Assembly: GCA_025059945.1 (NCBI GenBank)
Contig: JANXDC010000003.1
Span: forward strand, 62,001 to 126,000
Length of the DNA: 64,000 nucleotides
Direction of reading: 5' to 3'
Source of the DNA: Bacteroidota bacterium
Lineage (GTDB): Bacteria; Bacteroidota; Rhodothermia; JANXDC01
Shown here: positions 945-50,883 of the stretch, piece after piece
Layout: each line of letters begins with the position of its first letter
Numbering within the stretch: position 1 is the first letter of the stretch
The notes under the pieces: generated by a model
Seen by the model: the letters and a program-made list of their open reading frames with translations, nothing else
Told to the model about the DNA's origin: nothing
The model's database searches: none
Made by a program: the position numbers and the translations under genes

Positions 945-1649
945 CTACTGAAAGAGCCTCTTATCGACCGGAATGTTCAGCTCGATTTTCGTAAAGGTCA
1001 GCTTCTGCACGCTCTGCCCGTCTACGGTGATCTCTAACTCGTGAGGCAGCAGCACCGAACCTACTTTGCGGTAATGGCGCAGGTAGTTCCATACCACACC
1101 TTGGGGGGTTGTGCTCTCGGAGGCCACAAGCAGTTTGGAATGTACCTCAAAATACAACTTGGAGGTGCTGCCTTCATGTTCTACATGCACAATGTGCACG
1201 GGGGTCCCGTTGAGCTCCCCCCGCTCAAGCTTTACGAAGCGGTAGCTAGTATCCCGGAGCATCCAGAGCTCCGGGCGCGGGCCCCGGACCTGGTGAGCAA
1301 AGTTGATCACGGGCATCTCTTGGCGCCCGTGCGGGGTCTGCATCCAGGCCTTTTCGGGGGTCACGACTTGGCTAAGCTCCATAGGTCCCATTGGGGTGCC
1401 GAGCACGAGGTCGTTGCGCATGTATCCGGGGTAGAGCAGAACCATGGTCATTTTCCCCGAAATGGGCATCCCCTGGGTCATCATTTGGAGCTCCACCTCC
1501 TGACGTAACGAGGTGATCTGCTCCCAGGCGCTGCCGCCGGTGGCTTCCAAGAAAGCCTCCACCACCCCTCGGGGGGAGAGCGGGTTTTGGGCCTGAGCGG
1601 CGCCGATTCCTGCTAGTACGAACAAACACGCCTTCCATATGGGGCGCAT
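945..1649 (-). CDS. Secreted LolA-like (lipoprotein-sorting-type) protein
   Basis: The 234-residue product starts with a clear Sec signal peptide (MRPIWKACLFVLAGIGAAQA, cleavage near residue 20). The mature part reads like the LolA/LppX-type half-barrel: a helix with VEAFLEATGG, followed by repeated amphipathic strands and YFEVHSKLL. Such proteins bind lipids or lipoproteins in the periplasm. A good ribosome site (AAGGAG) lies 8 bases before the ATG. It is monocistronic and converges on the BtuF-like gene with 14 bases between stops. A second, more canonical LolA lies at 20338-20973, so this one probably has a different cargo. The exact role is unknown. Confidence 0.68.
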   Translation of the reverse strand: MRPIWKACLFVLAGIGAAQAQNPLSPRGVVEAFLEATGGSAWEQITSLRQEVELQMMTQGMPISGKMTMVLLYPGYMRNDLVLGTPMGPMELSQVVTPEKAWMQTPHGRQEMPVINFAHQVRGPRPELWMLRDTSYRFVKLERGELNGTPVHIVHVEHEGSTSKLYFEVHSKLLVASESTTPQGVVWNYLRHYRKVGSVLLPHELEITVDGQSVQKLTFTKIELNIPVDKRLFQ

Positions 1650-1782
1650 GGGCCTGACTCCTTGTGTTTTTGGGTTACCGCCCCCCCCTCGGGGATCTCA
1701 AGACGGGATTGCAGGCTTGTCCCAAACGCCGGGAGGACTCAACATCAAAGGTTGCGTGCGGATGCGGGCAAACGCAATAACG

Positions 1783-1804
1783 AAAAAGCCCGCTTAAGCG
1801 GGCT
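1783..1804 (-). terminator. Rho-independent terminator of sodA
   Basis: A perfect 7-bp stem (1787-1793 with 1798-1804) with a TTAA loop is followed on the minus strand by a run of five T. It sits 9 bases after the superoxide dismutase stop codon. Confidence 0.9.
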
Positions 1805-1812
1805 CTTCTAGA

Positions 1813-2430
1813 TCAGCGCCGCATGGCCTCCGCGAAGCGTCGTGCGACCTCTTCCCAATTGACCACGTGCCACCAGTTTTCAACGTATTCGGCGCGACGG
1901 TTCTGATACTTCAGGTAATAGGCGTGCTCCCAAACGTCTAGCCCCAAAATAGGCATATGGCCTTCCATGAGGGGGCTATCCTGATTGGCCGTGGAATAGA
2001 CTTGCAGCTGGCCGTTTGCATCCAGCACCAGCCAAGCCCAACCGCTTCCAAAGCGCCCCAGAGCGGTTTGGGTGAAGAGATCACGAAAGGCCGCAAACGA
2101 GCCGAAGCGGCTCGCGATCGCCTCCGCCAAAGCCCCCGTGGGTTCACCCCCACCGTTGGGCTTCATGATGGTCCAGAAGAGGCTGTGATTCGCATGCCCG
2201 CCGCCGTGGTTGCGCACAGCCGGGCGGATGTCCTCGGGCACCTCTCCGATGCGGCGCAGTAGATCCTCGATGGATTCGTATCGGAAGTCCGGATGCTTTT
2301 CCAGTGCCTTGTTCAGGTTGTCGATGTAGCCCTGATGATGTTTCGTGTGGTGGATCTCCATCGTGCGCGCATCAATGTAGGGCTCAAGGGCATCATACGG
2401 ATACGGCAACGGGGGCAGGGTAAAGGCCAT
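1813..2430 (-). CDS. sodA: Superoxide dismutase, Mn/Fe family
   Basis: This 205-residue enzyme converts superoxide to hydrogen peroxide and oxygen in the cytoplasm. The N-terminal LPPLPY segment, the metal-ligand helices (EIHHTKHH and [13 protein letters not shown]), and the C-terminal [15 protein letters not shown] block holding the Asp and His ligands are all present. The active-site glutamine in the ANQDSP segment and the GGG before HANH favour manganese use. There is no signal peptide. A strong AGGAGGT site precedes the ATG. The gene is flanked by its own terminator and stands alone. Confidence 0.96.
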
Positions 2431-34754: not shown

Positions 34755-37064
34755 TTAATTGCGCAACGGCTTGCCTGTCTTAAGCGTATACGCGATCCGC
34801 TCCTGGGTTTTGCGCGTGCCCAAAAGCTTCAGGAATGCCTCGCGCTCCAGATCCAAGATGTCCTGTTCCGTGACCGTGCGCGGGGACCCGTCGCCGCCGC
34901 AGAGCACATAGGCGAGCGTGCGCGCAAGCAACAGCTCGTGTTCCGTGATGCGACCCGCCTGCCGCAGCTGCCAGGCGCCGTAGTACAGGTTGCCCAGGGC
35001 CTCCGCGCCCAGGGCGCGGATCGTTCGATTGGGCGCGGGGGGCATGTAATCCGGAGCCAACTCGAGCACGCGCGCTTTGGCGTCAGTTATAAGCCGGTAT
35101 CGGTTCATCGTGATCCGATCGCCGTCGCGCAAAAACCCCATCGCGCGCGCCTCTAGGGCGCTACCGGAGGTTTGCGCCAGGGCGATCAACTGAAACGCGC
35201 GTCGAACGGCCTCAAAGGGATCCGCCTCCGGATAGGCGGCTAGCTCCTCAGAGAACCGGAAAAGCAGCTCCTTTGTGCCGCCACCAGCCGGGATAAGCCC
35301 CACACCGGTCTCCACAAGCCCCATGTAGAGCTCCGCGTGGGCCTGTACGCGATCGGCGTGCAGCACAACTTCTGCTCCACCTCCGAGCGTAAGCCCAAAA
35401 GGCGCAGCCACCACGGGAAAGGGCGCGTAACGCAGACTCATGGAGGCGCGTTGAAACTGGCGCACGGCCAGCTCCAGCTCGTCCCAGTCTCCCTCCTGCG
35501 CCATCATGAGGATCAGGGCCAAATTCGCGCCCGCGGAGAAGTGCTCTCCCTGATTGCCGATCACAAGGCCCAGAAAGTGCTGCGGCACCACCTCCAAGGC
35601 AACCTGCACCATGCGCAGGGCGTCTTCGCCGATGGCGTTGGCCTTGGAGTGGAACTCCAAAAGCGCCACCCCATCGCCGATGTCCAGCAGACTGGCCCCG
35701 GCGGATTGGCGCACTATGGCCGCACCGTTGCGCTTAAGCGCACCAAGCAGGATCAGCTCCCGCGGCCTTGGCGAAGGGCCTGCGGGGGCATAGAAGGGCC
35801 GAGAGGCGCGCAGGTGCTCTTGCACGATCGGCGGAACCTCCCAGCCCAAGGCGGCGAAGACCTCCGCTACGGCATCAAGGCCCAGCAGATCGTATAGCTC
35901 AAAGGGTCCATACTCCCATCCGAAGCCCCATTTGAGGGCGTTGTCGATGTCCTCTATCGCGTCGGAGACCACCCCGTATTGCCGAGCCGCGTAATGCAGA
36001 AGCCCGTACGTGGTGCGGCGCATGAACTCCCCTAAAGGGCCTTCTAGGCGAAGCAGGGCCCGAATGCGCGCGGCGGTATCCGCAAGCTGCTGAATCGGCT
36101 CCAGCTCCGGAAGCCGAACCTTGCCGCGGTCCTCGTACTCCAGGGTCTGGAGGTTGAGCGTCAGGATGCGCCGCTTGCCAGACTCATCTTGCACGCGCTT
36201 GTAGAAGCCCTGAGTCGTCTTCTCTCCCAGCCAGCCGCGCTCCAGAAGCCTTTGCACCACCTCCGGCAGGGCAAAGCCTGGATCGCCCGTAGCCTGCTCA
36301 AGATCCCGGGCCACCCGGTAAAGCACATCCAGCCCCGTAAGATCCGCCGTGCGGAAGGTGGCGCTTTTCGGGCGCCCGATAAGAGGCCCCGTCAGGAAAT
36401 CCACCACATCCGGGCTTAAGCCCAGCTCCAACATCGCGCGCATAGCCTGCGCTAGGCCGTAGACCCCGATGCGGTTGGCGATGAAACCGGGTACGTCCTT
36501 GGCGATCACGACCCCTTTGCCCAGGATACGCTCCCCGAAAAGACGCATGCGTCGCAGCGCCTCCGGATCCGTATCCGGGGTTGGGATCAGCTCAAGCAGG
36601 TACAGGTACCGAGGCGGATTGAAGAAATGCGTGCCCAGAAAGCGCCTCCGAAACGCTTCGGAGCGCCCCTCCAGCTGCCGATGCATGGGGATACCGCTGG
36701 AGTTGCTGGAGACGATCGCTTGGGATCCCACAAAAGGCTCCAGGCGCGCCCACAACGCGCGCTTGGCCTCCAGATCCTCCACGATCGCCTCCACGATCCA
36801 GTCGGCCTCTCGGATGCGCTCAAGGTCATCCTCGGTGTTGCCGATCGCGACAAGACGCTGCCGATCCGCATGCATGAACGCGGCGGGCTTAAGCTGCAGA
36901 GCGCGTTGCAAGCCGGCCCGTGCGACGGCGTTGCGATCGGACCCCTCTGATGCCGGAAGATCGAGCAGCAGCGTGGGCACCCCGGCGTTGGCCAGATGCG
37001 CCGCGATCTGGGCCCCCATGGTGCCCGCCCCAATAACGGCTGCCTTGCGAATACGATGGGACAT
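34755..37064 (-). CDS. fadN: 3-hydroxyacyl-CoA dehydrogenase / enoyl-CoA hydratase fusion (FadN type)
   Basis: The 769-residue bifunctional enzyme has the NAD-binding dehydrogenase domain first (GAGTMGAQIAAHLANAG near residues 9-25), its C-terminal 3HCDH domains (FIANRIGVYGLAQAM), and the crotonase hydratase domain last (about 490-690, with GEHFSAGANLALI and LTLGGGAEVVL). This order is that of Bacillus FadN and the reverse of E. coli FadB. ATG 37064 is preceded by GGGGAG; the longer frame adds an unlikely Arg/His-rich leader. First gene of the operon. Confidence 0.94.
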   Translation of the reverse strand: MSHRIRKAAVIGAGTMGAQIAAHLANAGVPTLLLDLPASEGSDRNAVARAGLQRALQLKPAAFMHADRQRLVAIGNTEDDLERIREADWIVEAIVEDLEAKRALWARLEPFVGSQAIVSSNSSGIPMHRQLEGRSEAFRRRFLGTHFFNPPRYLYLLELIPTPDTDPEALRRMRLFGERILGKGVVIAKDVPGFIANRIGVYGLAQAMRAMLELGLSPDVVDFLTGPLIGRPKSATFRTADLTGLDVLYRVARDLEQATGDPGFALPEVVQRLLERGWLGEKTTQGFYKRVQDESGKRRILTLNLQTLEYEDRGKVRLPELEPIQQLADTAARIRALLRLEGPLGEFMRRTTYGLLHYAARQYGVVSDAIEDIDNALKWGFGWEYGPFELYDLLGLDAVAEVFAALGWEVPPIVQEHLRASRPFYAPAGPSPRPRELILLGALKRNGAAIVRQSAGASLLDIGDGVALLEFHSKANAIGEDALRMVQVALEVVPQHFLGLVIGNQGEHFSAGANLALILMMAQEGDWDELELAVRQFQRASMSLRYAPFPVVAAPFGLTLGGGAEVVLHADRVQAHAELYMGLVETGVGLIPAGGGTKELLFRFSEELAAYPEADPFEAVRRAFQLIALAQTSGSALEARAMGFLRDGDRITMNRYRLITDAKARVLELAPDYMPPAPNRTIRALGAEALGNLYYGAWQLRQAGRITEHELLLARTLAYVLCGGDGSPRTVTEQDILDLEREAFLKLLGTRKTQERIAYTLKTGKPLRN

Positions 37065-37171
37065 ACGCTTAAGTTCTCCCCCTTTCCGGCGCCGCGCGAG
37101 GTGAAAGCGATGCGGATGGTGGAAAGGAAAATACGCCCAACTCGAGGGCAAATCAAGTATACGGAAACAGC

Positions 37172-37525
37172 CTACCGCGGTTCGGACTTGCTTGAGGAGC
37201 CCCAGCGGGATAGGATCCCCCGTATGAGGGCGGAGGCCAGGGCCCCGGCGAAGCTGTTCAGAAACCCCCTACCCAGGGCGCGCCCCCAGCCCTCTGCTCT
37301 GGGTCCGGCGCGGCCGCCTAGACGGCGGGCTAGCCCGAAGCCCACCGCGCCCAAAAGCAACAGGCTGGCGATAGGCCAGCGACGGGCCCACCGGCGCCAA
37401 TCGAGGCTGTAGCGCAGCTCCTCGCTTAGCGCCTCCAGGGAGGCGGATACGTCCTCACGGGCGCGCGTTAGTTCTTGTTGCAGCGCCTGGCGGCGCAGCA
37501 TCAGCTGCGCTTCGATGGGGTCCAC
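37172..37525 (-). CDS. Small membrane protein downstream of YqjE-like gene
   Basis: The 117-residue product has an N-terminal helix with EAQLMLRRQALQQELTRAREDVSASLEAL, one or two membrane helices (ASLLLLGAVGFGLARRLG) and a C-terminal hydrophobic segment. I do not recognise a precise family, but location after YqjD- and YqjE-like genes suggests the third member of that small envelope cluster (YqjK-like position). A GTG start at 37525 follows AGGAGAGG and overlaps the previous gene by 71 bases; ATG 37501 is the alternative with less overlap. Confidence 0.62.
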   Translation of the reverse strand: MDPIEAQLMLRRQALQQELTRAREDVSASLEALSEELRYSLDWRRWARRWPIASLLLLGAVGFGLARRLGGRAGPRAEGWGRALGRGFLNSFAGALASALIRGILSRWGSSSKSEPR

Positions 37526-37910
37526 GAGAGTCCTCTCCTATCGTCTCCGCAAGCAGGGCGCGCAGGATGCCCCGGCGAACCGCCCGGCCGATCACGGAAA
37601 AGGCCAACCGACCCCCTAGCCCTCCTAGCAAAAGCAGCCCAGCTCCGACGAGCGCAAACCCCCAAGCGGCGTGCCCCAGTAGTCCCCCCAGCCACAAGGC
37701 CAAAGCCAAAAGCCCAAAGCTAAGCCCCAAGGCCAGGAGCCCAAGCAGCAGCAGCCAAGCCAATAGGCGTCCGATGAGCTCGGCCAGTTGCTCGGCCAGG
37801 TCCAACCGAAAGAGCTCAAGGCGGGCCTCCATCAGATCCACAAGATCGCGCACCAGCTCCTGCAGACGCAGCAGGACCCGCTCGAGCAGGGTCACCGGGG
37901 TTTCCATCAT
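37455..37910 (-). CDS. YqjE-like phage-holin-superfamily membrane protein
   Basis: The 151-residue product starts METPVTLLERVLLRLQELVRD, a helix rich in Leu/Glu, then has two strongly hydrophobic helices (LLAWLLLLGLLALGLSFGLLAL and FALVGAGLLLLGGLGG), and ends in a Pro/Ala-rich tail. This is the layout of the YqjE/holin-like (Actinobacterial holin) family. The start ATGATG overlaps the stop of the DUF883 gene by ATGA. Function unknown; such trios are common in envelope-stress contexts. Confidence 0.72.
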   Translation of the reverse strand: MMETPVTLLERVLLRLQELVRDLVDLMEARLELFRLDLAEQLAELIGRLLAWLLLLGLLALGLSFGLLALALWLGGLLGHAAWGFALVGAGLLLLGGLGGRLAFSVIGRAVRRGILRALLAETIGEDSRGPHRSAADAAPPGAATRTNARP

Positions 37911-38200
37911 CGACGTGGCCAAAGAAGTCCCACCAGAAAGCCCACCAACAGCGCCCCCAGCAGGGCGCGCTCGGGGTGCCGACGCACCCACATACGGCCC
38001 TGCTCGACCCATTGTTGAGCATGCCGATAGGCCTCCGAGGCCTCTAAATGCTTTACGGGTGCGTTCAGGGCCTCGCGCGCAGTCCGGAGGGCTTCCCGGC
38101 CTAGATCTGTAAGACGCTCCTTGAGCAGACGCAAGTCCTCCTCCAGAACGGCTAGTTCATCCGGAGCGTCTCGATCGGGGGCCTGTCTTGTGGGTTTCAT
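37907..38200 (-). CDS. DUF883 (YqjD/ElaB) ribosome- or membrane-associated protein
   Basis: The 97-residue protein has a long helix (ELAVLEEDLRLLKERLTDLGREALRTA) and ends with WVRRHPERALLGALLVGFLVGLLWPRR, the C-terminal membrane anchor with the RRHPE motif typical of YqjD/ElaB. In E. coli these proteins tether ribosomes to the inner membrane in stationary phase. An AAGGAGG site precedes the ATG. First gene of a three-gene unit. Confidence 0.85.
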   Translation of the reverse strand: MKPTRQAPDRDAPDELAVLEEDLRLLKERLTDLGREALRTAREALNAPVKHLEASEAYRHAQQWVEQGRMWVRRHPERALLGALLVGFLVGLLWPRR

Positions 38201-45187: not shown

Positions 45188-46375
45188 CTAAGGCAGCGCC
45201 AAGGCTCCCAACACGACTCGACGGCGCGCGCCGGTTACGCGAGGCAGGTTCGTGGGGGTGCGCTGGAAGAACTCGTGAGCCAGCAGGGCAAAGCAGAGGG
45301 CCTCGCGCGCATCGGGGTCAACGCCACAGATCCAGGTCGTCTCCACCGGAACGGGCGCAAAACGCCACTTGAGCCGCTGCATCAGGAAACGGTTGTGGGC
45401 CCCGCCGCCGCCCACAAGCACACGATGCGCCGGGCACTCGGAAGCGACAAAATCGCCATAAGCGCGCCATATGGCCTCGACCGTGAGGGCTGATACGGTG
45501 GCCATCATATCCTCCGGGCTGAGGCCTCGGCGGCGCATCGTCCGCAGCAGGCCCTCTAGGTAACGCGCCCCAAATTGCTCCCGCCCAAAAGAGCGCGGCG
45601 GGGGGCGGCGAAACCTCCTCTGGCCTAGCCAGCGCTTTAGGAGCTCCTCATCGACGCGACCGGCCAAAGCCCCCCTTCCGTCTGGATCGTAGTCGAGCCC
45701 GAAGAGCCGACGGGCGAGCGCATCGATGAGCATGTTGCCCGGGCCCGTGTCAAAGCCCCAGACCTCCTCAAGCGCCCCACCGGCGGGCAAGACGGTCACG
45801 TTGGCGATCCCGCCGATATTGAGCAACAGGCGGTTTTCGCGCTCATGGCGAAACATCACCCAGTCGAAATACGGCACAAGCGGGGCTCCCTGCCCGCCTG
45901 CGGCGATGTCGGCTGAGCGGAAGTCGTAAACAACCGGCCGGCCTAATAGCTGCGCCAGCACGGGACCGGAACCGATCTGGCAGGTGGCCGGAACTCGGTG
46001 CTTTAGGGCCGGGTCTGGAAAGCCGATGTGGTAGACCGTCTGGCCGTGACAGCCGACGGCGTCTAGCGATTCGACCGGGATGGCGGCCCGCTCGGCGCCT
46101 CGGCGCACGGCCTCGGCGTAGAAAACGGCCAACTCCATGTGCAGCTGCGCCAGTTCGCGCAGGCGGCCGCGTCTAGGATCTTGTACGACAAACAGGGCCC
46201 TGCGCAGGGACTCCGGATACGGCTCGCTGTGAAAAGCCAAAAGCCGCATGCGCAGGTTGGATCCGGATCCCGAGAAATCGGCTATGGCCACGTCCACGCC
46301 GTCTAAGGAGGTGCCGCTCATGAGCCCTGCAATGCGTCGGGCCCGATCCCCCCACAAGGCCGCCACGCTCACCAT
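45188..46375 (-). CDS. anmK: Anhydro-N-acetylmuramic acid kinase
   Basis: The 395-residue kinase phosphorylates and hydrolyses anhydro-MurNAc from recycled peptidoglycan. It shows GLMSGTSLDGVDVAI near the start, VGCHGQTVYH, the metal/ATP region NIGGIANVTVLP and GFDTGPGNMLIDAL, and a late LVGGGGAHNRFL. ATG 46375 overlaps the preceding gene by 7 bases; the longer frame is not supported. Confidence 0.94.
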   Translation of the reverse strand: MVSVAALWGDRARRIAGLMSGTSLDGVDVAIADFSGSGSNLRMRLLAFHSEPYPESLRRALFVVQDPRRGRLRELAQLHMELAVFYAEAVRRGAERAAIPVESLDAVGCHGQTVYHIGFPDPALKHRVPATCQIGSGPVLAQLLGRPVVYDFRSADIAAGGQGAPLVPYFDWVMFRHERENRLLLNIGGIANVTVLPAGGALEEVWGFDTGPGNMLIDALARRLFGLDYDPDGRGALAGRVDEELLKRWLGQRRFRRPPPRSFGREQFGARYLEGLLRTMRRRGLSPEDMMATVSALTVEAIWRAYGDFVASECPAHRVLVGGGGAHNRFLMQRLKWRFAPVPVETTWICGVDPDAREALCFALLAHEFFQRTPTNLPRVTGARRRVVLGALALP

Positions 46376-47031
46376 CGGAGCACGACCCCGCTGGCGTCGA
46401 TTCCGCTTTGCCAATTGGCCACGACGCGCAACGGGGCTCGGAAGCGCACAGGCCGCCAGTCGCGCAGGTATGCGAGCTCCCGCAAGTGGGCCCAATCGGG
46501 CTCCTGTTCCAGCTTGTGGGCAAGCACCTGATCGCAGAGCACAACCTCGGCCTCCGGATGCGCCTCCGCTATAGCCAGCGCGGCCTCAAGGGGGTGCTCC
46601 AGGTAGACCGCCTCCCCTTGCCAGGCCAGCGAGGAGAGGACCGGCCTGGCCCCCGAAGCGGCGATTTGCCAAAACCAGCTCGCGTCGCGGACCTGTAGCT
46701 CGCGCTCGCGCACAAGCAAGCGCCGGTCGGTTCCCTGAATACCCACGGCCGGAAGCCCGCTTTCCGTCATCAGGGCCACCAGGCGCCGATTCCATTCCCG
46801 CACGCTGCGCAGGACGGCCTCTTCGGCCTCCCTGGTCGCGGTTTGGTACAGGCTTCCTGTGCGCTGCGCCGCGATCTGCGTTTGCGCAAAAAGCACATCG
46901 GCCTGCTCGCTTGGCCCGTGCACGAACACCAGGGGCCCGGAGAACGCCCGTAGGCTCCGGGCCAGCGTGCTTATGAAGATCCGATCCCCGGCCTGATGCG
47001 GGCCCAACAGCAGCACCCAGGGGCGCCTCAT
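46369..47031 (-). CDS. Degenerate amino-acid-kinase-like protein
   Basis: The 220-residue product resembles the acetylglutamate-kinase/amino-acid-kinase fold in its middle: FVHGPSEQAD, then REAEEAVLRSVREWNRRLVALMTESGLPAVGIQGTDRRLL, and a late HPLEAALAIAEAHPEAEVVLCD. The N-terminal KxGG nucleotide motif is absent (it reads LLLGPHQAG) and the VHGGG loop reads VHGP, so it may be inactive or use another ligand. It overlaps prfA by 4 bases and anmK by 7. The fold call is inference; treat as hypothetical if not confirmed. Confidence 0.55.
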   Translation of the reverse strand: MRRPWVLLLGPHQAGDRIFISTLARSLRAFSGPLVFVHGPSEQADVLFAQTQIAAQRTGSLYQTATREAEEAVLRSVREWNRRLVALMTESGLPAVGIQGTDRRLLVRERELQVRDASWFWQIAASGARPVLSSLAWQGEAVYLEHPLEAALAIAEAHPEAEVVLCDQVLAHKLEQEPDWAHLRELAYLRDWRPVRFRAPLRVVANWQSGIDASGVVLRW

Positions 47032-48098
47032 AAGGAGCCAGTTTTGATTTTTTCGGCCACGTCTGCGATGCGCAGAGCTTCGATCAGGGGATCCAGCGCT
47101 CCGTCGAGCACCTCGGACAGTTGGTAAAGCGTAAGACCCACCCGGTGATCCGTAACCCGGCTTTGGGGAAAGTTGTAGGTGCGGACCTTTGCGCTCCGAT
47201 CACCTGTTGAGACCATTGAACGCCGCATCTGCGCCCGCTCCTGTTCTTGGCGCTGGCGCTCTATTTCATAGAGCTTAGCGCGCAGCAGGCGCATGGCCTT
47301 CTCTCGATTCTGGTGCTGAGAGCGCTCATCTTGGCAGCTCACCACAAGGCCCGTCGGCAGATGCGTGATGCGCACGGCCGTTTCGACCTTGTTTACGTTT
47401 TGTCCGCCCGGACCTCCCGCGCGAAAGACGTCGATACGCAGCTCTTCGGGCCGGATCTCGACATCCACCTCTTCGGCCTCCGGCAAGACCGCCACCGTGG
47501 CAGCCGAGGTATGAATGCGGCCGCTGGATTCCGTCTCGGGCACGCGCTGCACCCGATGTACGCCGGACTCATACTTCAGATGCCCATAGGCGTCTGGGCC
47601 GTTAACCAGGAGGACGACCTCTTTAAACCCCCCCAGATCCGAGGGATGGGCATCCAGGAGCTCCCAGGTCCAGCCCTTGCGCTCCGCATACCGGGTGTAC
47701 ATGCGGAACAGATCTCGAGCGAACAGGGCCGCCTCCTCGCCCCCGGTCCCGGCCCGGATCTCCACGATGGCGTTTCGTCGGTCTGCGGGGTCTTTAGGGA
47801 TAAGCAGCTGCCTAAGGCGCTCCTCGTGCGCCTCAAGCTCGGGCTCGAGGACTCGGATCTCGCTTTTGGCCCATTCGACGAGCTCGGCGTCGCCGCCTTC
47901 TCGAAGTAGCTTACGGTATTCCTCTAGATCGCCTCTGATGCGCTCATACTCGGTCAGAGCGCGCACGATGGGTTCTAGCTCGCGGTGCTCGCGCGCGATC
48001 CGAGCTAGCGCGGCCGGATTGGCCGCCGTGGCCGGATCGTAGAGCTGTTGGGTTAGGGTCTCGAAGCGTTCGCGAATCGCCTGTAGTCGCTCCCACAT
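47028..48098 (-). CDS. prfA: Peptide chain release factor 1
   Basis: The 356-residue factor reads UAA and UAG. Seen are HRVQRVPETESSGRIHTSAATVAVLP, with PET at the stop-recognition PxT motif that marks RF1, the GGQ peptide-release loop within RAGGPGGQNVNKVETAVRITHLP, and a C-terminus TYNFPQSRVTDHR typical of RF1. ATG 48098 (MWERLQAIRERFE) is chosen over the longer frame. It is 57 bases after the SGNH-like gene. Confidence 0.95.
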   Translation of the reverse strand: MWERLQAIRERFETLTQQLYDPATAANPAALARIAREHRELEPIVRALTEYERIRGDLEEYRKLLREGGDAELVEWAKSEIRVLEPELEAHEERLRQLLIPKDPADRRNAIVEIRAGTGGEEAALFARDLFRMYTRYAERKGWTWELLDAHPSDLGGFKEVVLLVNGPDAYGHLKYESGVHRVQRVPETESSGRIHTSAATVAVLPEAEEVDVEIRPEELRIDVFRAGGPGGQNVNKVETAVRITHLPTGLVVSCQDERSQHQNREKAMRLLRAKLYEIERQRQEQERAQMRRSMVSTGDRSAKVRTYNFPQSRVTDHRVGLTLYQLSEVLDGALDPLIEALRIADVAEKIKTGSL

Positions 48099-48155: not shown

Positions 48156-48689
48156 TTACAGGGCGCGCAGATGGGCCTCCAATAGCTCGCCCCACACCCG
48201 GTAGGCGGCCGGGCTTATGGGATCTCCCCTGTAAGCCTCCCGGAGGGCGCCCTTCGGATCGGCCCAAAGCTTGTGGAGATCCAAGAAAACGAGCCCGTAG
48301 GCCTCCGCAAGCCCTTGCAGGCGGCGGTTGAGCGCCCTTACGCGTTCCGGAGGACTCCAAGAGGCCGGAAGCGGGGGCACCGCGCAAAGCCAGGTTCGAA
48401 TCGGCCGGCTCGCGCCTAAGAGGCGCCCTATGATCGCCTCCAGATCCCCCGTGATGGCCTCTTCGGTTCTGCCCTTGCGCAAATCGTGGGCGCCGGCGCA
48501 AAGCACGACCAAATCCGGAAAAAGCCGCAGCGCGTCTTGAAACAAGCGGGCCGAAAGCGCGCCCAGATCCGCCCCGGGCAGACCTTTATTCAGCACGGGC
48601 CATGCGGGCAGATAGCGCACCACATCTAGCCCCGCAATCCATTCGTCGCCTACCAGCACGATGGGCCGACTAAACGCCTCCGGTCGCAT
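48156..48689 (-). CDS. SGNH-fold protein lacking catalytic residues
   Basis: The 177-residue product has the layout of SGNH/GDSL hydrolases: block I IVLVGDEWIAG (10-20), block II NKGLPG (34-39), block III LCAGAHDL (63-70) and block V DPISPAAYRVW (156-166). The nucleophile Ser of GDS is Glu (E16), the Asn of GxND is His (H68), and the His of DxxH is Ser (S159); Gly of block II and D156 remain. It therefore should not act as a classical esterase. ATG 48689 leaves only 2 bases after the ABC permease stop, so it probably serves the exporter or the envelope. There is no signal peptide. Confidence 0.75.
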   Translation of the reverse strand: MRPEAFSRPIVLVGDEWIAGLDVVRYLPAWPVLNKGLPGADLGALSARLFQDALRLFPDLVVLCAGAHDLRKGRTEEAITGDLEAIIGRLLGASRPIRTWLCAVPPLPASWSPPERVRALNRRLQGLAEAYGLVFLDLHKLWADPKGALREAYRGDPISPAAYRVWGELLEAHLRAL

Positions 48690-48691
48690 GG

Positions 48692-49969
48692 CTAGCCTTG
48701 CCGGGCCCAGCGTAAGATTTCCCTTAAGGTAGGCTTCTTTCCATAAATCAGGATGCCGACCCGGTAGATTCGAGCGGATATCCAAACCCCGGCCCAGAAA
48801 GCAAGCGCAAGCAGCAAGACCGAAAGCCCCACTTGCCAGAGGGGCACGGTCGTAGCGGCCAGACGCACGACCATCAGGATAGGAGCAAAGAAGGGCACCA
48901 AAGACAGCACCACGGCCAATACGCCATCCGGATCGGCTATGACATTGGTGATGAAAAAAATCGGGACGATAATGGGCAGCGTGATGGGCCATTGCAGATT
49001 TTGGGCGTCGGATTCCTGATCAACGGCCGAGCCGATAGCGGCAAAGAGGGTGGCGTACAGAAAATACCCGGCTAGAAAGTAGAACACAAACGCCATCAGC
49101 AGGCTGGCGGGGATGCCGGAGGGAGCAAGACCGACGGGCAGGGCGGTAGCCTCCTGACCAGTATTGGCGCCAAACACGGACATTAGGGCGGCCCAAAAGG
49201 GGCCCAGCCCGACGAGAATGCCCATCCCCAGTAGGATCCAAATCAGGATCTGCGTTAGCCCCACCGCCCCGATCCCCAGCACCTTGCCCATCATGATCTC
49301 GAAAGGCCGAGCCGAGGAGGCCAAGACTTCGATAATGCGATTCGTCTTCTCCTCGATCACCCCACGCATGACGAGCGCCCCGTAAATAAGCATCATCACG
49401 TAGATAAGAAATCCGAGCACGTAGCCGAGGCCCGCCAGGATGAGGCCTTGGTCGCGTTCCACGCCCGTTTCGGTAATGCGGTGTGTTTCCAGCGGTACGC
49501 GCTCACGCGCCAGCCGGATCACGCTCGTATCCAGCCCCGCCTGGCGCAACCGCTCCAAGCGCACGACCTCGCTTACGTCCGCCTCTAGCCTCTCCCGAAA
49601 CGCTAGCCCCCCACCGCCGCGGGTGTAGAGGTGCGCTCGTCCGCCTTGCAGTACATCGGGGGGCAAAAGCAGATATCCGTCCACGCGCCCCGATCGGACC
49701 GCTTCGCGCAGAGCGGATTCGGGCTCGTGGCTCACATAGTAACGGGCCGTATCTCGTGATACAAGCTCCGGGCCCAGTCTACCTGTAGCGTCCAGGACGG
49801 CGAGCCGACGTCGGCTGGTATCCTGCGTCCATAGGGTCACGAGCACGGGCACCACGAGGATAAGCAGCAGCCCCAGCGGCCCCAGCAAGGTGCCCACCAG
49901 AAAGCCACGAGAGCGCACCCGCACGGTATACTCGCGCAGCAGGATGATGCCGACTTTATTCCAGTTCAT
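48692..49969 (-). CDS. ABC-2 type exporter permease (NatB-like)
   Basis: The 425-residue membrane protein has one N-terminal helix (GFLVGTLLGPLGLLLILVVPVLV), a large extracytoplasmic loop (about 50-165), and five or six C-terminal helices with the family pattern IEEKTNRIIEVLASSARPFEIMMGKVLG. This layout fits NatB/ABC-2 permeases that export sodium, drugs or lipids. It overlaps the ATPase gene by 4 bases. Substrate unknown. Confidence 0.88.
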   Translation of the reverse strand: MNWNKVGIILLREYTVRVRSRGFLVGTLLGPLGLLLILVVPVLVTLWTQDTSRRRLAVLDATGRLGPELVSRDTARYYVSHEPESALREAVRSGRVDGYLLLPPDVLQGGRAHLYTRGGGGLAFRERLEADVSEVVRLERLRQAGLDTSVIRLARERVPLETHRITETGVERDQGLILAGLGYVLGFLIYVMMLIYGALVMRGVIEEKTNRIIEVLASSARPFEIMMGKVLGIGAVGLTQILIWILLGMGILVGLGPFWAALMSVFGANTGQEATALPVGLAPSGIPASLLMAFVFYFLAGYFLYATLFAAIGSAVDQESDAQNLQWPITLPIIVPIFFITNVIADPDGVLAVVLSLVPFFAPILMVVRLAATTVPLWQVGLSVLLLALAFWAGVWISARIYRVGILIYGKKPTLREILRWARQG

Positions 49970-50883
49970 GAGGCAGCCTCCGGCATAGAGCCCGTTACGA
50001 CCTCGATAAAGATCTGCTGCAGGCTGGGCTCGAACACCTCGAAACGCTCGATTTCCGCCTCCGCGGCTATGGCCATGAGCACATCCTGGGGGCGCAGACG
50101 CCCGTCAAGCAGGCGCAGCTGCGCCGCATGCTGGCTGCGGCTGAGGATCTGCACCCCGGGCAGGCGATCCAAAATTCCATCCGGACCGGAGAAGGCCACA
50201 CGGATAGTATCCTTGCGATAGCGTGCTTTTATCGCCCGCATCGATCCCTGAAGCACAACCCGTCCCTGATGGATCAACACGATGTCGTCGCAAAGGGCCT
50301 CGACCTGCTCCATGCGGTGCGTGGAGAACAGAATCGTGCGTCCCTGGCTTTTAAGTTCCAGAATAACCTGGGTCAGCAGCTCCGTGTTGACGGGATCTAG
50401 TCCCGTGTAGGGCTCATCCAGAATCAACAGCTCCGGCTCATGGAGCACGCTCGCGATAAACTGCACCTTTTGCTGCATGCCTTTGGAGAGCTCCTCGATG
50501 CGCTTCTGCTCCCAGCCCCGCGCTTGTAACCGCTCCAGCCAGCGGCGTGCGGCGCCCTCGGCCTCTTGTCGGCTGAGCCCCTTGAGGCGGCCGAAGTAAA
50601 TGAGCTGCTCCAGTACGCGCATCTTTTTGTATAGTCCGCGCTCTTCGGGCATATATCCGATGCGCCGCTGCTGTTCGGGGCCCACGGGTTGGCCCAGCAG
50701 GCTGATCCGACCCGAATCAGGAATCAGGATGTAGGTGATCATGCGAATTGTGGTCGTCTTGCCCGCCCCGTTGGGGCCCAAGAGGCCGAAGACGCGGCCG
50801 GGTTCAACAGCGAACGTCACCCGATCCACAGCCCGCGTGCGGCCAAAGCTTTTGCAGACCTCGACGAGCTCCAAAACAGGCAT
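49966..50883 (-). CDS. ABC transporter ATP-binding protein (NatA-like)
   Basis: The 305-residue ATPase shows Walker A GLLGPNGAGKTTTIRM (near 35-50), the signature ELSKGMQQKVQF (near 130), Walker B ELLILDEPYTGLDP and the H-loop STHRMEQVE. A C-terminal domain of about 80 residues follows, as in NatA/CcmA-type exporters. ATG 50883 (MPVLELVEVCKSFG) is chosen over an 8-codon longer start. First gene of the exporter operon. Confidence 0.93.
   Translation of the reverse strand: MPVLELVEVCKSFGRTRAVDRVTFAVEPGRVFGLLGPNGAGKTTTIRMITYILIPDSGRISLLGQPVGPEQQRRIGYMPEERGLYKKMRVLEQLIYFGRLKGLSRQEAEGAARRWLERLQARGWEQKRIEELSKGMQQKVQFIASVLHEPELLILDEPYTGLDPVNTELLTQVILELKSQGRTILFSTHRMEQVEALCDDIVLIHQGRVVLQGSMRAIKARYRKDTIRVAFSGPDGILDRLPGVQILSRSQHAAQLRLLDGRLRPQDVLMAIAAEAEIERFEVFEPSLQQIFIEVVTGSMPEAAS

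Follow-up and report, generated by a model that had tools for sequence, protein, structure and literature searches.

What is known of SGNH-fold proteins that act without catalysis or in the company of an ABC transporter? SGNH pseudoenzymes are already on record, as exemplified by the OSK domain of insect Oskar (PF17182), and so is a complex between an SGNH protein and an ABC transporter, in that instance with an active enzyme, the YbbAP-TesA complex of E. coli. According to PMC6191285 the OSK domain binds RNA and is related in structure to hydrolases, and PMC7250577 gives it a bacterial SGNH-like origin; it has in common with the protein analysed here an SGNH-like fold and the non-catalytic role that we propose below. 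TesA likewise combines the SGNH fold with an ABC transporter partner, and it is portrayed in PMC12646458 as periplasmic and active, requiring Ser36, Asp180 and His183, with a transporter of Type VII. A third comparison is offered by the small Bacteroidota SGNH/GDSL hydrolases (PF13472, about 170–200 amino acids; our loci L092–L103), which share fold, length and tree branch with our protein and align with it in all blocks, at 25–32% identity for the nine aligned. However, these hydrolases keep the motifs GDS, GTND or GIND, and DGLH, which our protein does not, and they do not adjoin an exporter, whereas its gene does. Our literature search found no report of a catalytically inactive SGNH protein encoded in an operon with an ABC transporter, no GDSL protein in which glutamate replaces the catalytic serine, and no paper that mentions KatS3mg041.

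Gene, fold and catalytic positions

The gene lies in the window, by which we mean the whole 64,000-nucleotide stretch of Bacteroidota DNA that was analysed. The sole close relative found is encoded in AP024675.1 (MAG: Bacteroidetes bacterium KatS3mg041), a genome of the same genus, and its product is 63% identical. On the minus strand of the window the order is an ABC ATPase of 305 amino acids (49966..50883; PF00005, E 1.9e-28; PF13732, E 7.8e-15), an ABC-2 type permease of 425 amino acids (48692..49969; PF12698, E 2.7e-44), the SGNH-like gene immediately 3' of it (48156..48689; 177 amino acids), and an open reading frame (47028..48098) with an ortholog in the same place in the relative, which we take to be prfA from the original prediction and from features of PrfA; glyS lies on the opposite strand. 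The coordinates agree with the arrangement first described, in which the SGNH gene starts 2 bases after the permease and prfA comes next: 2 bases lie between the stop of the permease gene and the SGNH start (3 bases in the relative, with the same gene order), and the prfA start at 48098, the one matching its relative, stands 57 bases beyond the SGNH stop.

Assignment to the SGNH fold is supported by profile, alignment and model. PF13472 (Lipase_GDSL_2) matches the window protein with an E value of 1.5e-16 and 61.8 bits, against a cut-off of 32.9, and the relative with 46.9 bits. The local match begins at residue 26 of the window protein and therefore leaves block I outside it; block I (GDE) was aligned with the GDS motif in three separate MAFFT alignments, and in the second of two AlphaFold models it stands where the first strand ends. 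The first model, made from the pair alone, has a pLDDT of 65 and a pTM of 0.66, and the second, made from the pair and two viral SGNH rows, has a pLDDT of 78 and a pTM of 0.79, residues 142–153 being poor. For both models the best structural match is the SGNH hydrolase 4rsh, over 160 aligned residues in each case (Z 16.2 and rmsd 3.1 for the first; Z 20.4 and rmsd 2.4 for the second), and 7pzg is tied with it for the second (Z 20.2, rmsd 2.7, 168 aligned). A sequence search of the PDB concurs (3p94, E 5.4e-7). The predicted model is thus a three-layer SGNH fold, matched at Z of about 20, as the original prediction had supposed.

The catalytic positions are another matter. Alignment columns 16, 68, 156 and 159 hold Ser, Asn, Asp and His in 65/65 other aligned SGNH relatives, which are the loci returned by our searches and not all SGNH genes in the genomes, counted once ORFs of at least 450 amino acids, identical sequences and second hits per locus had been left out. 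In these columns the window protein reads Glu, His, Asp, Ser, and its relative Glu, His, Glu, gap. Block I is GDE at residues 14–16 (48642..48650), with Glu for the nucleophile Ser in both species. Similarly, block III is GAHD at residues 66–69 (48483..48494), with His for the oxyanion Asn, again in both. In block II (NKGLPG, residues 34–39) the oxyanion Gly, G39, is retained in both species. Block V is DPIS at residues 156–159 of the window protein (48213..48224), with Ser for the catalytic His; Ser159 is not conserved, since the relative contains no D-x-x-H and the block V motif has gone altogether. The two proteins share Asp15, Glu16, His68 and Asp69, and the sole Ser invariant between them is S94, away from block I. 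Because Glu16 and His68 recur in a separate genome, the substitutions are not a sequencing error.

As far as the two translations go, the original observation is confirmed, slightly more strongly than stated for Glu16 and His68, which are common to both species, and more weakly for Ser159: the statement that four SGNH blocks are retained with His replaced by Ser holds for the window species and fails for the relative, as does conservation of the Glu, His and Ser triplet in its last member. From the mechanism set out in PMC9487903, a protein lacking Ser, Asn and His would not be expected to hydrolyse esters in the SGNH manner.

Origin and selection

The order to which the window genome belongs consists of two genomes, and the SGNH-like gene is present in both. 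A profile of the two rows matches 37 of the 244 genomes of the class at E ≤1e-5, with E values of 1.9e-11 or weaker outside the pair. Of 394 genomes drawn from the phylum, 52 match at E 1e-8; outside the pair the lowest E value is 1.5e-21, and the proteins matched there are small SGNH proteins with intact motifs. The pair has one origin: it forms a single branch in the tree (support 100/100), on a stem 3.0 changes per column long, and lies among 14 small SGNH rows (98/95), where all others keep the catalytic set. This placement, down to the identity of the sister row, is approximate, since the window protein has an unusual row composition.

Several other SGNH genes came to light. Relatives in phages and plasmids are distant, with E values of 5e-7 and 8e-7 at best, and are annotated as esterases of the canonical type; two viral contigs carry the same SGNH protein with GDS, GTND and DGLH (L137:2001-2504 and L138:658-1161). 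One class genome has two overlapping SGNH frames in tandem (L015:815-1546 and 1468-2286, minus strand). The window genome encodes a second SGNH-family protein (L113, G000:C4:3046-4119) of about 436 amino acids, with a PF00657 match at E 2.5e-15, and its counterpart in the relative has about 433 amino acids (E 4.4e-16).

How strongly is the gene constrained? Between the two species, dN/dS was calculated by NG86 with bootstrap ranges; as dS exceeds 1 (about 1.2 for the SGNH-like gene), the values are rough. The whole gene gives 0.273 (0.165–0.434), residues 1–100 give 0.146 (0.066–0.281) and residues 101–177 give 0.55 (0.26–0.99), and the neighbours give 0.141 (ATPase), 0.138 (permease) and 0.084 (PrfA). 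Residues 1–100, which carry blocks I–III, are thus under strong purifying selection, with a dN/dS like that of the ABC genes, and the C-terminal part is looser. Identity in the pair follows the same division, at 76/100 for residues 1–100 and 32/77 for residues 101–177 (72 of these aligned). Judged from these sequences, the front of the protein is constrained and block V is not, a conclusion about conservation that rests on one comparison, given that two sequences of the Glu/His kind were found.

Two finer readings of the conservation were rejected. Blocks I–III are identical at 30/37 positions, compared with 78/140 in the remainder of the protein (Fisher p 0.005), but set against the remainder of residues 1–100 (46/63) the difference is not significant (p 0.47), and conservation therefore does not single out a preserved pocket. 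Likewise, the N-over-C identity bias of the pair (0.32) is the highest of 213 pairs, the 212 others being SGNH pairs of 50–75% identity, but such a bias is mostly usual for SGNH proteins (next 0.29, median 0.149) and was dropped as a special signal.

We propose that the gene encodes a retained SGNH-fold pseudoenzyme with a non-catalytic role, soluble and cytosolic, and we regard this explanation as a whole as probable. The protein has no hydrophobic stretch of the signal-peptide kind (top 19-residue mean 1.26 in a simple hydropathy scan). Its ancestor would have been a small Bacteroidota SGNH esterase, from which the catalytic Ser, the oxyanion Asn and the catalytic His would have been lost before the split of the two known species, the gene then being kept for a non-catalytic role. 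That role may be binding: the former active-site face, whose pocket would now be lined by Glu16 and His68 along with the still conserved Asp15, Gly39 and Asp69, would most likely receive either a small ligand or another protein; the exporter encoded upstream is, by adjacency alone, one candidate partner. The original prediction already spoke of a pseudoenzyme, and three observations support the term: both species have lost Ser, Asn and His at the catalytic positions, S94 lies away from block I, and residues 1–100 are under purifying selection. Fold-based annotation labels SGNH proteins lipases or esterases, and it would be wrong for this pair, in which a bacterial lineage would have lost the entire catalytic set, cleanly and under selection. 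Kinship with Oskar was considered and rejected: PF17182 gives the pair 12.7 and 20.8 bits, short of its cut-off of 27, and canonical SGNH proteins match it equally well or better, reaching 39.4 bits.

The neighbouring exporter

The exporter is of the NatAB/DrrAB/GldA type, with PF00005, PF13732 (the DrrA1-3 C-terminal domain) and PF12698 all above their cut-offs; the ATPase falls below the DrrA and GldA equivalog cut-offs of NCBIfam (213.6 versus 312.45 bits for TIGR01188, and 198.2 versus 402.6 bits). The permease is widespread, 59 of 60 class genomes having one.

Could the SGNH-like protein be an accessory subunit of this exporter, a non-catalytic counterpart of TesA that, bound to the permease or ATPase, would present or sense hydrophobic or glycan cargo? 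The intergenic gaps of 2 and 3 bases and the like gene order in both genomes are consistent with this, as is the SGNH-ABC complex reported from E. coli (PMC12646458), whose TesA, chain T of PDB 9ge8, appears in the Foldseek list as a match to the first AlphaFold model (E 1.6e-4). We nevertheless consider it unlikely. The adjacency is uninformative, since AP024675.1 preserves the gene order of the window throughout, with 45 of the 48 non-overlapping window ORFs of at least 120 amino acids found there in the same order, and an exporter link drawn from conserved gene order was rejected on this ground. Within 1500 bases downstream of the permease, an SGNH gene is absent from all 27 testable loci of other families (30 listed matches were taken as loci, of which two are the genus pair and one, L065, ends 214 bases past the gene), and none of the 12 closest canonical SGNH loci, of 9–14 kb each, has an ATPase or permease like these. 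Furthermore, TesA as characterized in PMC12646458 is a periplasmic, catalytic partner of a Type VII transporter, whereas the window protein has neither the catalytic set nor a signal-peptide-like stretch, and its neighbouring permease is of the ABC-2 type.

The comparison of genomes suggests at best a weak link between SGNH gene and exporter, limited to one genus and indistinguishable from plain synteny. The original prediction had suggested that the protein may bind an acyl or glycan ligand for the exporter, and on this point we part from it: nothing beyond adjacency was found in favour, and among the loci compared the two genes are paired only in the genus pair. A more specific version seems to us improbable: the pseudoenzyme, arisen in one thermophile-like lineage, would serve the ABC-2 exporter as a dedicated subunit in the cytosol, for cargo binding or regulation, with a Glu16-His68 pocket replacing the Ser-Asn site, and would so be a non-catalytic counterpart of the TesA of YbbAP-TesA. 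If the SGNH-like protein does bind the exporter, the SGNH-ABC pairing of YbbAP-TesA would be extended to non-catalytic partners.

Within the collinear stretch, three window ORFs are without a counterpart in the part of AP024675.1 compared: 948-1649 (minus strand), 36996-37409 (plus strand) and 37458-38012 (minus strand).

Decay, altered chemistry and the downstream genes

It is quite unlikely, in our view, that the gene is a decaying relic whose function has been lost and which is drifting towards a pseudogene. Block V is gone in one species and changed in the other, the bootstrap range for residues 101–177 reaches almost to 1, only 32/72 of their aligned residues are identical, and both genomes hold another SGNH gene, of the PF00657 family, all of which would suit decay. 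Yet both species have kept an open frame at a dS of about 1.2, dN/dS is low for the whole gene and lower for residues 1–100, and Glu16 and His68 are identical across the pair. We favour a retained pseudoenzyme over a decaying gene because of the strong purifying selection on residues 1–100. An enzyme of altered chemistry, with a new active site built from Glu16, His68, Asp69 or a migrated residue, is very doubtful: the invariance of these three residues and of Asp15 would fit it, and PMC9487903 describes SGNH families whose oxyanion hole is altered or which lack the acid of block V, but the exceptions described there retain the nucleophilic Ser, whereas here no invariant Ser lies near block I, and residues 16–20 are of low confidence in the first AlphaFold model.

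Finally, we note that beyond prfA on the minus strand lies a 220-residue amino-acid-kinase-like protein (46372-47031; PF00696, 21.4 bits, below the cut-off of 24.9), followed by anmK, for anhydro-N-acetylmuramic acid kinase (45188-46375, minus strand; PF03702, E 1.7e-103). At a threshold of E 1e-3 the kinase-like protein has relatives in 36 of the 60 genomes of the class, and it evolves fast within the genus, with 53% identity and a dN/dS of 0.42.
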